From NCBI GenBank assembly GCA_003550565.1, contig PUKQ01000225.1, forward strand, positions 1-38,291: a stretch of 38,291 nt of DNA, written 5' to 3'. The DNA is from Syntrophomonadaceae bacterium. Its GTDB lineage: Bacteria; Bacillota; Dethiobacteria; DTU022; PWGO01. The position numbers and the translations under genes were made by a program. Below are positions 7,636-24,301 of this stretch, one piece after another. The notes under the pieces were generated by a model. The model searched no databases. It was not told where the DNA came from and saw only the letters and a list, made by a program, of their open reading frames with translations. Position 1 is the first letter of the stretch. The number at the start of each line of letters is the position of its first letter.

Positions 7636-8214
7636 TCAGGATTCACATAAAGTAAGGAAATAATGATGCATGGTAAGATCATCCACCAGTTCGGGATGAA
7701 AAGAAGTTACCAGCATATTCCCCTGCCGGGCGGCAATGATGCCTTCTTCCAACCTGGCCATCACCTGCACCTCTGCGGAGGCTTCGGTTATTACCGGCGC
7801 CCGGATAAAAACTCCAAGTAGCGGTTTTTCCCATTTCTCCACATTCACCATGGTTTCAAAACTTTCTCTTTGCCGGCCAAAGGCATTGCGTCTGACCCGC
7901 ACTTTCATCAAGCCCAGGTTCGGCTGATTCGCAGCCCCATCTTCAACTTCTGAAGCCAGAAGTGCAAGGCCGGCACAGGTTCCAAAGAGAGCCATCCCCT
8001 GCCGGCTCTTTTCCACCACAGCCCGATCGAGGCCCGTTTCCCGCATCAGGTATCCGATGGCAGTACTCTCTCCGCCGGGAATGATAAGGCCACTTAACCC
8101 CTCCAGGTCCAAAGGCCGTTTAACTTTTCGAGCCTCTGCACCACACCTGCGTAAATGATGATAATGCTCCGACACAGCACCCTGCAAAGCAAGAACTCCT
8201 ACATTAATCTCCAT
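7636..8214 (-). CDS. pdxT: Pyridoxal 5'-phosphate synthase glutaminase subunit
   Basis: It releases ammonia from glutamine for PdxS in the DXP-independent PLP pathway. It has the start 'VGVLALQGAVSEH', the 'PGGESTAIG' loop, the nucleophile 'FGTCAGL' and the His-Glu pair 'SFHPEL'. The 192-residue length is typical. Its partner pdxS is present but about 6.3 kb away in the same orientation, with the hisHF operon, an IclR gene and pyrG in between. It converges with carA. Confidence 0.95.
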   Translation of the reverse strand: MEINVGVLALQGAVSEHYHHLRRCGAEARKVKRPLDLEGLSGLIIPGGESTAIGYLMRETGLDRAVVEKSRQGMALFGTCAGLALLASEVEDGAANQPNLGLMKVRVRRNAFGRQRESFETMVNVEKWEKPLLGVFIRAPVITEASAEVQVMARLEEGIIAARQGNMLVTSFHPELVDDLTMHHYFLTLCES

Positions 8215-8397: not shown

Positions 8398-9201
8398 CTA
8401 CGGATAGGAGATAACAGGGCGCACAGGAATTCCCTGCTGTGCCAAGTATTTTTTAATGTCCGCAATTCTATATTTGCCATAATGCAAAATAGAAGCCACC
8501 AGTACTGCATGTGCTTTGCCAGTTGTTAAAGCATCCACCAGGTGCCCCAAATTTCCGGCACCCCCGGAAGCAATTACCGGAATGGAGACCGTATCCACCA
8601 CCGCCGCCAAAAGCTCGTTATCGTATCCACTATGGGTGCCGTCTGCATCCATGGAAGTGAGGAGTATTTCCCCGGCCCCCATTTTTTCCGCTTCTACGGC
8701 CCATTCCAAAACATCCCTACCGGTGGGATAACGCCCGCCGTGGCTGTAAACTTCCCAGCAGGTTGAGCTATTTTTAACTTCATTTGCCTTGGGTTTATAT
8801 AGGCGGCAGGCATCTATAGCTACCACCATACATTGGCTGCCAAATTGCATTGCTCCCGCACTTATCAACTCTGGGCTCCTGAGGGCAGAAGTGTTAAGAG
8901 ATACTTTCTCTGCTCCATTACTTAGGAGTTCACGCATAAACTCAACCGAATCAATGCCTCCACCCACGGTAAAAGGGATAAATATTTCTTCCGCTGTCCG
9001 CTGCACTACTTCTACTATAGCCTGCCGGTTTTCTGCAGAAGCGGTTATATCCAGGAATACCAGTTCATCTGCGCCTTCCCGATCATAGAAGACAGCTTTC
9101 TCTACCGGATCTCCGGCATCTCTGATGTCCTGAAAACGGACTCCCTTTACCACCCTTCCATCACGCACGTCCAGGCAGGGTATAATTCTTTTAGCCAGCA
9201 T
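8398..9201 (-). CDS. hisF: Imidazole glycerol phosphate synthase, cyclase subunit
   Basis: With HisH it turns PRFAR and glutamine-derived ammonia into IGP and AICAR (histidine synthesis). The (beta/alpha)8 markers are all present: '[16 protein letters not shown]' with the catalytic Asp, 'VGGGI', 'VVAIDA' with the second catalytic Asp, '[13 protein letters not shown]', '[10 protein letters not shown]' and 'IASGGAG'. A segment of a few extra residues follows 'AIDA', before 'WEVYSHGG'. It lies 40 bases downstream of hisH in the same operon. No other his gene is in the window. Confidence 0.96.
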
Positions 9202-9241
9202 AGTAGGTATCTCCTATTAGAGTATTTTAAGAAGAAAAAGT

Positions 9242-9898
9242 TTATCGATGAATAAAAACCATGTTATCAAAATTCCGGAGCAAGAGCAAACCCTCCGGTC
9301 CACTCTTTTCCGGATGAAACTGAACCCCCATAAGATTTCCGTGGGCCACAGCGGAAGTGAACTGGCTCCCGTAAAAAGTTAACGCAAGCCTTACCTGTGG
9401 TTCCAGGGGCTGCACATAATATGAATGGGTGAAATAAAAATAAGGATCTTCCGGTAAACCTTTAAATAGTGGATGACCTTTTTGCTGCAAATAAACCCGG
9501 TTCCAACCAACGTGGGGCACCGGTTGGCCGGCGGGTAAAAGCTTTACCTCACCCGGGATAATATTCAACCCGGGTATCACCTTCGTTTCGCACTCAGAGC
9601 ATTCCTCGCTACTGCTAAAAAGAAGCTGCAATCCTAAGCAAATCCCCAAAAAAGGCTTTCCGGACTCTATCGTTTCCCGGAGTATCTGAACCAGGCCATT
9701 TTTCTGCAGTATCATCATGGCATAGGCAAAAGAGCCCACCCCGGGGAAAACAACTCCCGCCGCCTTTTTGATTACATTTGCCTCATGGGTGACAATTGCC
9801 TTCCGACCTGCTTTTTCCAACGCCTTGTACACACTGCCGATGTTGGCGATACCACTGTCCACCAGGGCAATATAATTACTGTTACCTTTTGGAGGCAT
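9242..9898 (-). CDS. hisH: Imidazole glycerol phosphate synthase, glutaminase subunit
   Basis: It is the glutamine amidotransferase partner of HisF. The class I triad is seen in 'GICLGLQ' (Cys) and 'VQFHPEKS' (His-Glu), and the N-terminus 'IALVDSGIANIGSVYKAL' is characteristic. The 218-residue length fits; about seven extra residues precede the usual start, but AGGAAGG eight bases before this ATG supports it. It lies 62 bases after the aminotransferase gene and is probably in the T-box-controlled transcript. Confidence 0.95.
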   Translation of the reverse strand: MPPKGNSNYIALVDSGIANIGSVYKALEKAGRKAIVTHEANVIKKAAGVVFPGVGSFAYAMMILQKNGLVQILRETIESGKPFLGICLGLQLLFSSSEECSECETKVIPGLNIIPGEVKLLPAGQPVPHVGWNRVYLQQKGHPLFKGLPEDPYFYFTHSYYVQPLEPQVRLALTFYGSQFTSAVAHGNLMGVQFHPEKSGPEGLLLLRNFDNMVFIHR

Positions 9899-9960
9899 TA
9901 ATCGTTCATCCTTCCTAATTTATTACTCAAGAAAAAATACCTCTTCCGTTTTACATAAAC

Positions 9961-11202
9961 CTACCTGTTTATAGCAGTCTTCACCGGTTCCTGGCGGCGG
10001 ATTTCCTGGAATATTTCACCGAGGCGACTAATTCCCTTGTGGATATCCTCTACGGAAGGTTGACTGAAAGAGAACCGGGCAGTGTGAGTGCCCTCACCGT
10101 TGCTATAAAAACCCTGGCCGTGTACAAAAGCTACTTTACGTTCAATGGCATGAGTAAGGATTTCATAAGCCGGTGGATAGTAATCCGGGAAGGTTACCCA
10201 AACAAAAAATCCTCCCTGGGGCCGTGTATAGTTTATCTCCGGGGGGAAGGACTGCTTCATGTTGTAAAACAATGCATCCCTCTTCTGCCGGTAAAGACCA
10301 ATAATGCGAGAAAGGTTTTCATCCACATAGCCGTCAAGGGCCATGCGATAAACAAGCCTTTGCCCCAGAGAGCCGGAGCACAAATCCGCCGACTGTTTTA
10401 ACATTATTAGTTTTTCTACCAAGAGAGGCGCTCCCACAATCCAACCCACGCGTATGCCCGGAATAAATATTTTGGAATACGATCCGATATAAATAACCCG
10501 TGATTCCGTATCCAGGGATTTATAACTGGGGGGAATAGTCCCTTCGTAACAAATTTCCCCGTAGGGATTATCTTCCAAGATAAGAAAGTTGTATCGCGAG
10601 GCCAGATCCAGTATCTTGCGCCGGCGGTCTTCCGTCGTAGTATAGCCGGTAGGGTTTTGGAAATTGGGCACCGTGTAGAAAAGCTTGGGTGTCTTACCCT
10701 GCTTCTCCAATCTGGACAAAGCCCTCTCCATCTTCTGCGGGCAAGCGCCGTTTTTATCCACAACCACGCCCACCGGCTCTCCTCCGCAAGACTGAATGGC
10801 TCCCATACCGCCGATATATGCGGGTTCTTCTACCAGGACGGGATCTCCGGGATCAACCAGCAATCGTGATATTAAATCCAGCGCCTGCTGGGTACCACTG
10901 GTTACTACAATATCTTCCGCTTCACAACGCACTCCTTCCCGTCGCATTTTGCGGGCAATAAAGGTCCGCAGCTCATAATTTCCCTCTGTGGGAGTATATT
11001 GAAGGGCATAGCGTCCTTCCTCTTCAATTAGTTCAGATATAGCCCTGGAAATATCCTCCCGGGGAAAGTAGTCACTGTCCGGGAAACCACCGGCAAAAGA
11101 AATTACCTCCGGGCGTTCGGTGAGGCTAAAGAAACCACGGATTTGAGAACCCTTCACCCGGCCTACACGACTGGCAAACTTTTCTGACCAAGACAACTCC
11201 AT
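9961..11202 (-). CDS. PLP-dependent aminotransferase, fold type I (LysN/MocR-catalytic-domain type)
   Basis: This is a 413-residue class I/II aminotransferase without the winged-helix domain of MocR regulators. Seen: 'ISFAGGFPDSDYFP', 'TSGTQQALDL' (PLP phosphate site), 'PNFQNPTG' (Asn and Pro near the cofactor), 'EDNPYGEI' (Asp to pyridine N) and 'GSYSKIFIPGIRVGW' with the Schiff-base Lys. The family includes 2-aminoadipate, aromatic, branched-chain and alanine-type transaminases, so the substrate cannot be fixed from sequence. The T-box upstream, which I read as alanine-specific, suggests a role in alanine supply. GGGGGG precedes the ATG. First gene of the operon with hisH and hisF. Confidence 0.9.
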   Translation of the reverse strand: MELSWSEKFASRVGRVKGSQIRGFFSLTERPEVISFAGGFPDSDYFPREDISRAISELIEEEGRYALQYTPTEGNYELRTFIARKMRREGVRCEAEDIVVTSGTQQALDLISRLLVDPGDPVLVEEPAYIGGMGAIQSCGGEPVGVVVDKNGACPQKMERALSRLEKQGKTPKLFYTVPNFQNPTGYTTTEDRRRKILDLASRYNFLILEDNPYGEICYEGTIPPSYKSLDTESRVIYIGSYSKIFIPGIRVGWIVGAPLLVEKLIMLKQSADLCSGSLGQRLVYRMALDGYVDENLSRIIGLYRQKRDALFYNMKQSFPPEINYTRPQGGFFVWVTFPDYYPPAYEILTHAIERKVAFVHGQGFYSNGEGTHTARFSFSQPSVEDIHKGISRLGEIFQEIRRQEPVKTAINR

Positions 11203-11267
11203 AAGACCAACCCCCCGTTACTTAATTGTTCTAAAACGCCTTTAACCGTTCCCAAGGCAAACTACGT

Positions 11268-11297
11268 AAAAAACCCGCCTCCTATTACCAGAGACGG
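11268..11297 (-). terminator. T-box attenuator terminator
   Basis: On the minus strand CCGTCTC and GAGGCGG form a seven-base stem with one G-T pair, closed by a 10-base loop and followed by GTTTTTT. It overlaps the 3' side of the antiterminator region and ends about 65 bases before the aminotransferase ATG, the standard T-box layout. Confidence 0.85.
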
Positions 11298-11540
11298 ATT
11301 GCTTTCTATCCCGCGGTACCACTCCGCTTGCTCCCTTCTCCTTTTGCTGGGAGCAGGGAACCACCTCTTATTTGATAACGGTGGTTCAATATCACCGATA
11401 CTGCTTACCATCCGAAAAAAACCGGGCTTCGGCAGCTAACTCCGGGGCGGCTTATCCTTGAATTATTCCGGGGCTCTTTCAGCCTTTGAAACCCCTCTCT
11501 GCAGGAAATTGCTCAAGCTTTTTCCCCTTCATCGCAAACC
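11268..11540 (-). promoter_or_regulatory. T-box riboswitch leader of the aminotransferase-hisH-hisF operon, probably tRNA-Ala specific
   Basis: On the minus strand the leader contains the T-box core AGTGGTACCGCGG (near 11311-11323), the Stem I base GCGATGAAGGGG (11524-11535) with the matching CCCCGGAG, an AGAGAG bulge, a distal loop with GGCTGAAAG, and a terminator. Stem I pairs GGGG with CCCC and CTTGA with TCAAG. This leaves GATAAGCCG as the 3' side of the specifier loop. The trinucleotide next to a purine and the CCCC helix is GCC (Ala). The antiterminator bulge is TGGT, which pairs with an ACCA end (discriminator A), as in tRNA-Ala. His (C73), Ser and Asp (G73) fit badly. The fold is hand-made, so the specifier is an inference. 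Confidence 0.9.
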
Positions 11541-11655
11541 TATTAAACTTTCTTTCTTTGATGTTTATATTATAGATAAGCACATTTGCCTATCAACAAT
11601 AAACATAATCAATTATTTAAAAAAGATTTATCTCCACAATGTGAAATCTGATTTA

Positions 11656-11684
11656 ATAATATGATAAAATAAATTTAATGTCAA
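11656..11684 (-). promoter_or_regulatory. Sigma-A promoter of the T-box operon
   Basis: On the minus strand a perfect TTGACA is followed after exactly 17 bases by TATTAT. The predicted transcript starts near 11649, giving a leader of about 450 bases that contains the whole T-box. Confidence 0.8.
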
Positions 11685-14546: not shown

Positions 14547-15431
14547 CTATATTCCTCGTTCCTGCATCCGCTCAGATAATTCCAGAGTAGAAATCTCTAC
14601 CCCCGGCATTGCGATACCAATACCATGCGAAACCTCGGCCAGCAAAGCAGCATCATCATAATACATGGCGCCTTTAACAATAGCTTCCGCCCGTGCCTGT
14701 GGATCCGTTGATTTAAAAATACCTGAACCGACAAAAACTCCGTCAGCACCTAATTGCATCATTAAAGAAGCATCCGCTGGAGTAGCTACCCCCCCGGCGG
14801 CAAAGTTAACTACCGGCAATCTTCCTTCTTCTTTAATCATTCTCAAAAGCTCAACAGGCACCCCCAATTCCTTGGCCAAATTCACCAGTTCTTCATTGGG
14901 GGTCTGAAGTACCTGCCTTAAGTCCGCATTAACACGTCTTATGTGACGCACTGCTTCTACTATGTTTCCGGTACCGGGTTCTCCCTTGGTTCGAATCATG
15001 GCTGCCCCTTCTGCTATTCGGCGCAGAGCTTCTCCCAAGTTTTTCGCCCCACAAACAAAGGGTACTTTAAAATTACCCTTATCGATATGATATGTCTCAT
15101 CTGCAGGGGTTAGCACTTCACTTTCATCGATATAGTCCACCCCGAGTTCTTCAAGAATCTGCGCTTCTGCCACATGGCCAATCCTGGCCTTGGCCATTAC
15201 TGGAATAGTGACAGCATCCATTATACGTCTGATTATATCCGGATCAGCCATCCGCGCTACCCCGCCTGCTGCCCGGATATCTGCAGGCACTCTTTCCAGG
15301 GCCATTACTGCCACGGCACCTGAATTTTCCGCAATACGGGCCTCTTCAGGGGTAGTAACATCCATGATAACGCCGCCTTTTTGCATCTGGGCCATTCCCT
15401 TTTTCACCCTATCTGTTCCTTCTTCTTTCAT
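14547..15431 (-). CDS. pdxS: Pyridoxal 5'-phosphate synthase, synthase subunit
   Basis: It makes PLP from ribose-5-phosphate, glyceraldehyde-3-phosphate and ammonia from PdxT. 'VMAKARIGH' and '[11 protein letters not shown]' carry the two catalytic lysines, and '[13 protein letters not shown]' and '[12 protein letters not shown]' are the phosphate-binding loops. The track ORF begins at a TTG six codons earlier; AAGGAGGAAA lies between that codon and this ATG, so the ATG is the start. The length becomes 294 residues, the exact family norm. pdxT is not adjacent. Confidence 0.97.
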
Positions 15432-15895
15432 GCAGCTTTCCTCCTTCAACCATAGATCACTTTCATTAAATATTTATTTTTACAAAGCTTCATAAATTCT
15501 CCACCCATTATTCCTCAAAGAAAAAGTCAATAATGCAAGTTAATTATAATTATGCAAATCCGGCAGAAATTTTCAACACTCTACAAGTTTATTTTAACAC
15601 AGGGCTTTAACTATTTGTAAATGAAATAAATGATATACTAACAAAATATTTTCGAAATTACAAGTGTTTATAAGTCTTATATTTCCCTAAACTGCACGGA
15701 TAAAAACAATATTAAGTAAGTCGAGAAGGATTTTATTCTACCTTTAACGAAAATACCATATGTATTTTATAACAAATATTATGCAGCAAAAGCAAGTATA
15801 AATCAATTAAAATATCCCCGCCATGATGCCTAAAAAACTAATTGCTCATTTTAATTTGAAAATGGCACCTTAAAGACTGGAGGTATATAGCATTA
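15432..15895. other. AT-rich divergent intergenic region between pdxS and mtnP
   Basis: The 464 bases contain no ORF with a credible ribosome binding site and no riboswitch I recognise (no SAM box). On the minus strand TTGAAA, 18 bases, TAATTA at 15548-15577 is a possible pdxS promoter. I found no convincing plus-strand promoter for mtnP. GGAGG at 15881-15885 is its ribosome binding site. Confidence 0.5.
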
Positions 15896-24225: not shown

Positions 24226-24301
24226 AGGGGAGTAGCTCAATAGGCAGAGCAGCGGCCTCCAAAGCCGAAGGTTGCGGGTTCGAGTCCTGTCTCCCCTGCC
24301 A
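24226..24301 (+). tRNA. tRNA-Trp (anticodon CCA)
   Basis: A complete cloverleaf: acceptor AGGGGAG/CTCCCCT, D stem GCTC/GAGC, anticodon loop CTCCAAA, T stem GCGGG/CCTGT with loop TTCGAGT, discriminator G and encoded CCA. The anticodon stem has a mismatch at its outer pair (G27-A43), and the T stem uses two G-T pairs. Confidence 0.97.

Follow-up and report, generated by a model that had tools for sequence, protein, structure and literature searches.

An alanine T-box probably governs an aminotransferase gene with hisHF behind it in a Syntrophomonadaceae genome

INTRODUCTION

In the window, that is, the whole 38,291-nucleotide stretch of a Syntrophomonadaceae genome analysed here, a T-box leader precedes an aminotransferase gene followed by the histidine genes hisH and hisF. 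Which amino acid does this leader sense, which gene does it belong to, and do the histidine genes follow it? In the reading that we consider probable, a transcriptional alanine T-box governs a likely alanine-forming aminotransferase, and the transcript runs on into hisHF, which were joined later by operon fusion. All features of the operon lie on the minus strand.

RESULTS AND DISCUSSION

The T-box leader

The Rfam model RF00230 matched the leader (11287–11541) over its full length (model positions 1–219 of 219), with 75.1 bits and an E-value of 1.8e-16. Since this score is below the curated gathering cut-off of 93 bits, a default Rfam scan at that threshold omitted the leader, which ranked eighth among nine clear T-boxes in the RF00230 search of this genome. 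A promoter-like site, TTGATA-N16-TATAAT, is located ahead of the leader (11569–11596; 11 of 12 consensus matches), and TATAAT also occurs immediately 5' of most homologous leaders. The expected T-box core was UGGNACCGCG; the core UGGUACCGCG is present at 11321, along with a mutually exclusive terminator. The bulge UGGU (11318–11321), complementary to the ACCA end of tRNA-Ala, was invariant in 39 of 39 leaders. The intrinsic terminator, a hairpin followed by a U run (11272–11300), has a folding energy of −14.6 kcal/mol, compared with a mean of −4.9 for shuffled sequences (z = −5.1). The motif CCGUCUC is common to this structure and to the antiterminator, whose region (11288–11328) was delimited from sequence and contains a 3-bp arm invariant in 21 leaders. 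Folded alone, the antiterminator region had an energy no better than shuffles, as expected for a fold from which the tRNA is absent. In the distal part of stem I, alignment columns 94–98 with 117–122 contain GC, AT, TA, and CG pairs across the leaders, apparent paired changes that support the helix.

The T-box is real, and chance is excluded: all 39 distinct homologous leaders with a readable specifier, each ahead of the orthologous gene, agree with this one in specifier and T-box sequence. An earlier reading of this DNA, made from the sequence only, had described a consensus promoter, a full T-box core, and an attenuator here and had proposed the Rfam search; all three elements were recovered.

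Specifier codon and cognate tRNA

The specifier was placed according to the TBDB rule (PMC7778990), which sets the triplet one base back (5') from where the specifier bulge ends. In basal stem I, GGG (11527–11525) pairs with CCC (11447–11445), with a single variable base, 11448, 5' of CCC, and the triplet read by the rule is GCC (11449–11451). The invariant columns around the specifier in 21 aligned orthologous leaders were GCC and CCC alone, and the intervening base changes. Among 39 distinct leaders from nine families, both GCC and UGGU were constant, while the base 5' of GCC was A in 35, C in two, T in one, and G in one leader, and the base 3' of it was G in 22, A in 14, C in two, and T in one. 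The script used for this count favoured GCC sites where several candidates matched, and therefore the 21-leader alignment represents the unselected evidence; the printed segments of the 39 leaders correspond to the same homologous site. Applied to other T-boxes of this genome, the placement rule gave Tyr before aroF-tyrA and Leu, Cys, Arg, Leu, and Trp before leuS, cysS, argC, leuA, and trpB, respectively (gene identities read from sequence alone). The rule therefore holds in this genome, and the assignment of the specifier to alanine, made already in the sequence-only reading, is well supported by the comparison of leaders. A shifted register, with AGC for serine or CCG/CCA for proline, would be allowed by TBDB, which permits −1 and +1 frames (PMC7778990), and UGGU would suit a proline tRNA with A73 as well. 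Both neighbours of GCC, however, vary over all four bases while GCC is fixed, which rules out the serine and proline registers, and the operon contains no serine- or proline-related gene; we regard a shifted specifier as extremely improbable.

The alanine assignment had also been derived from the bulge, on the grounds that TGGT demands an A at the discriminator position. This argument was dropped. According to TBDB, 46% of Trp T-boxes combine UGGU with G73 (PMC7778990), and in this genome the Trp T-box (L007) has UGGU, yet tRNA-Trp (window position 24226) carries G73. UGGU thus fits the discriminator A73 without demanding it, since a G-U wobble is allowed. That tRNA-Ala has the discriminator A was correct: a tRNA-Ala(GGC) gene with A73 and an ACCA end is present in this genome (G000:C272), and the tRNA genes examined include no second copy. 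Therefore, the specifier and bulge contacts can both be Watson-Crick. A TAGCTCAG-type pattern search for tRNA-Ala(GGC) matched other tRNAs only; the gene was spotted by reading the leuS leader and was confirmed by ARAGORN.

Genes behind the leader

Family models assign the first gene (9961–11202) to PLP-dependent class I/II aminotransferases of the KAT-II/LysN/archaeal multi-substrate type. It is followed by hisH (9242–9898), the sole copy detected in the genome, and by hisF (8398–9201), a second genomic copy 56% identical to the one on contig C28. Both exceed the curated NCBIfam cut-offs. HisH scored 207 bits against 105.4 and retains in the alignment the Cys of GICLG and the His-Glu of FHPE; HisF scored 357.7 bits against 294.55, with both catalytic Asp residues (CLDV and AIDA motifs) aligned. 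The three genes were thus correctly named in the sequence-only reading, but the operon span given there (9242–11684) stops at the end of hisH and leaves hisF outside. The gene run may extend further to pdxT (7636–8214, identified by a family model), a probable tail gene after a gap of 183 nt.

The main histidine cluster of this genome, on C28 (L045:1900–13100), has the gene order aroF-tyrA-aroA-hisD-B-A-F-IE-J-aroC, with its own hisF and no hisH. Since the assembly was rated 6.4% contaminated, the single-copy state of hisH is provisional. This arrangement of his genes recurs in a genome of the same family (G002), which argues against a binning artefact.

Three further observations concern these genes. 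The C28 mixed aromatic/histidine cluster is preceded by a Tyr (UAC) T-box. Most genomes of family f3 have pdxS-pdxT directly after hisHF (L046–L072); the window has its pdxS at a displaced position, 14547–15449. Several rather complete genomes (G001, G004, G007, G011, and G013–G016) contain hisF with no detectable hisH, which suggests that their HisF is ammonia-dependent or otherwise supplied.

Distribution of the T-box and its genes in related genomes

About 45 related genomes encode an orthologue of the aminotransferase at 50%–67% identity, and nearly all of the orthologues with upstream sequence were preceded by a GCC T-box. The pairing of alanine T-box and aminotransferase, widespread in this group of anaerobic bacteria, spans nine families at 44%–67% identity, including three further families at 44%–47% (L201–L203), and it was absent from the inspected homologues of 42% identity or less. 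In one genome (G032) the gene order is kept, but the 229 nt available upstream contain no T-box. In two of the three families at 44%–47% identity (L202 and L203), the aminotransferase orthologue is preceded by tandem T-boxes, both with GCC.

Dethiobacter-like genomes (L037, L040, L041, L077, L211, and L219) have the aminotransferase with its T-box and no hisHF nearby, while G009 and G012 have hisH-hisF-pdxS-pdxT with neither the aminotransferase nor the T-box. The T-box therefore belongs to the aminotransferase, with which it stays where hisHF are missing, and hisHF(-pdxST) exist where both are absent. The best reading is that the T-box and the aminotransferase form the older unit, behind which hisHF, and in relatives also pdxST, joined later; both additions were overlooked in the sequence-only reading. 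Most f3 genomes have the order aminotransferase-hisH-hisF-pdxS-pdxT with short gaps. The six main aro-his clusters inspected in f3 (L155–L160) consist of aroA-hisD-hisB-hisA-hisI-hisJ, with aroC in most, and lack both hisH and hisF; the T-box operon holds the sole hisHF detected in those genomes.

Role of the aminotransferase and reach of the transcript

The aminotransferase matched a family model, and no equivalog cut-off for an alanine aminotransferase was reached. The nearest solved relatives are archaeal multi-substrate aminotransferases and LysN (PDB 1x0m, 3aov, 1wst, and 2egy), members of the same sequence family, and an alanine:glyoxylate aminotransferase. By its sequence the enzyme fits an alanine-forming role, which family membership does not prove. 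With such relatives, it could instead consume alanine or use another substrate (2-aminoadipate, an aromatic compound, or glyoxylate), and the T-box would then serve donor supply, not alanine synthesis. A T-box usually causes more of the sensed amino acid to be made or taken up, and an alanine-consuming target under an alanine T-box would act in the wrong direction. Moreover, the aminotransferase is kept in f3 genera without alanine dehydrogenase: several genera of this family retain the operon and lack that enzyme. Alanine dehydrogenase is present in the genome under study, which may give the cell a source of alanine besides the aminotransferase. Overall, a donor-supply role is rather unlikely. 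Much less plausible still is that the enzyme substitutes for HisC, making the whole a histidine operon, although the gene adjoins hisHF and in many f3 genomes a divergent hisC adjoins the leader. A hisC gene above the curated cut-off is encoded elsewhere in this genome (contig C8) and in most relatives, which leaves no need for the aminotransferase to act as HisC; in addition, the specifier is that of alanine, not histidine (CAC), and the pair of T-box and aminotransferase is also found away from hisHF.

A likely alanine-forming aminotransferase as the proper target of the switch leaves the question of how far hisHF depend on it. The gap between the aminotransferase and hisH is 62 nt long (9899–9960) and contains no terminator, nor did the scan reveal any minus-strand promoter-like site in it; the best score of a promoter search in the 220 nt before hisH in the window was 7, below the shuffle mean of 8.0. 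The gap between hisH and hisF (9202–9241) is 40 nt, again free of terminators. Given this tight spacing, with neither a terminator nor a promoter-like site between the aminotransferase and hisH, expression of the sole hisH and the second hisF in this genome very probably depends on alanyl-tRNA charging. Alternatively, the T-box could control the aminotransferase while hisHF are largely uncoupled from it by a promoter of their own in the gap. An exact TATAAT occurs within 220 nt before hisH in 11 of 20 relatives examined, mainly where the gap is longer than 80 nt and in several with a fair −35 element, and G009 and G012 maintain hisHF-pdxST with no T-box-aminotransferase unit. In many f3 relatives hisHF thus need not depend on the T-box, and the TATAAT before hisH in those with long gaps suggests a partial escape from it. 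This does not apply to the window, with its short gap and a promoter score below that of shuffles, or to the short-gap relatives L014, L015, L016, and L036, which likewise have no promoter-like site before hisH, and for the locus studied here we consider uncoupling improbable. Spacing and promoter-like sites point to a coupling of hisHF to the T-box that is tight here and in short-gap relatives and looser elsewhere. The tie between hisHF and alanyl-tRNA charging, which had been called odd, is therefore plausible for this operon, with the qualifications that a second hisF is located in another cluster and that many relatives likely have an internal promoter.

Proposed regulation and comparison with known systems

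In the proposed mechanism, tRNA-Ala would be bound by base pairing at two sites, its GGC anticodon by the GCC specifier and its uncharged ACCA end by the UGGU bulge. Binding of uncharged tRNA-Ala(GGC) would allow the antiterminator to form and RNA polymerase to read into the aminotransferase gene, whose product most likely makes alanine from pyruvate. The transcript would continue through hisH and hisF, and possibly pdxT, so that alanine starvation would raise HisH, the genome's sole glutaminase subunit for IGP synthase. A wider cross-pathway circuit is conceivable, though we hold it to be doubtful: alanine starvation, acting via the single-copy tRNA-Ala(GGC), would raise the alanine-forming aminotransferase and the cell's sole HisH, or in relatives the sole HisHF along with the PLP synthase, and tie the supply of histidine, AICAR, and PLP to alanyl-tRNA charging, and the transcription of the same tRNA inside the leuS T-box leader would link the leucine and alanine sensors.

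The alaS T-boxes of Bacillus subtilis and Clostridium acetobutylicum share with this leader an alanine specifier, a UGGU matching the ACCA of tRNA-Ala, and transcriptional antitermination (PMC4695836), but they have GCU and target alanyl-tRNA synthetase, whereas the leader described here has GCC and precedes an aminotransferase operon. GCC makes up 9% of the alanine specifiers in TBDB. RNA- or tRNA-linked control of histidine genes is known from Firmicutes histidine T-boxes and HisR control of his operons (PMC9413887); here, in contrast, hisHF stand under an alanine sensor and away from the main his cluster. The mechanism of the switch is therefore known, while its target set, aminotransferase-hisHF(-pdxST), appears undescribed: no published description of an alanine T-box on such an operon was found in the openly licensed literature. 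No T-boxes are known in the archaeal hosts of the related multi-substrate aminotransferases. The conserved alanine specifier predicts a role in alanine metabolism for a vaguely annotated aminotransferase family in at least nine families of bacteria. The locus would also be a clear case of histidine genes brought under the sensor of another amino acid by operon fusion. Since some relatives show the pre-fusion unit and others have apparently regained an internal promoter, the consequences of this regulatory capture are directly testable.

A tRNA-Ala(GGC) gene within the leuS T-box leader

The sole tRNA-Ala(GGC) gene detected in this genome is complete and lies inside the leuS T-box leader (L002:1501–1809, corresponding to G000:C272:4334–4642). 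It follows stem III, precedes the antiterminator, and has partly complementary arms on either side. Rfam aligns a single T-box across the embedded tRNA with 119 bits. No published description of a tRNA gene within a T-box leader was found in the openly licensed literature. The 30 best-matching loci came from 29 relatives and from this genome; in 23 of them a T-box core stands directly 3' of tRNA-Ala, most with a CUC specifier; besides L002, such loci are L174, L176–L180, L182–L189, L191–L194, and L196–L200. Some genomes of family f5 have tRNA-Ala ahead of leuS without a T-box. In two f5 loci (L173 and L190) a terminator-like hairpin is located after tRNA-Ala(GGC) and before leuS; it looks like the 3' portion of a T-box and is perhaps a T-box remnant.
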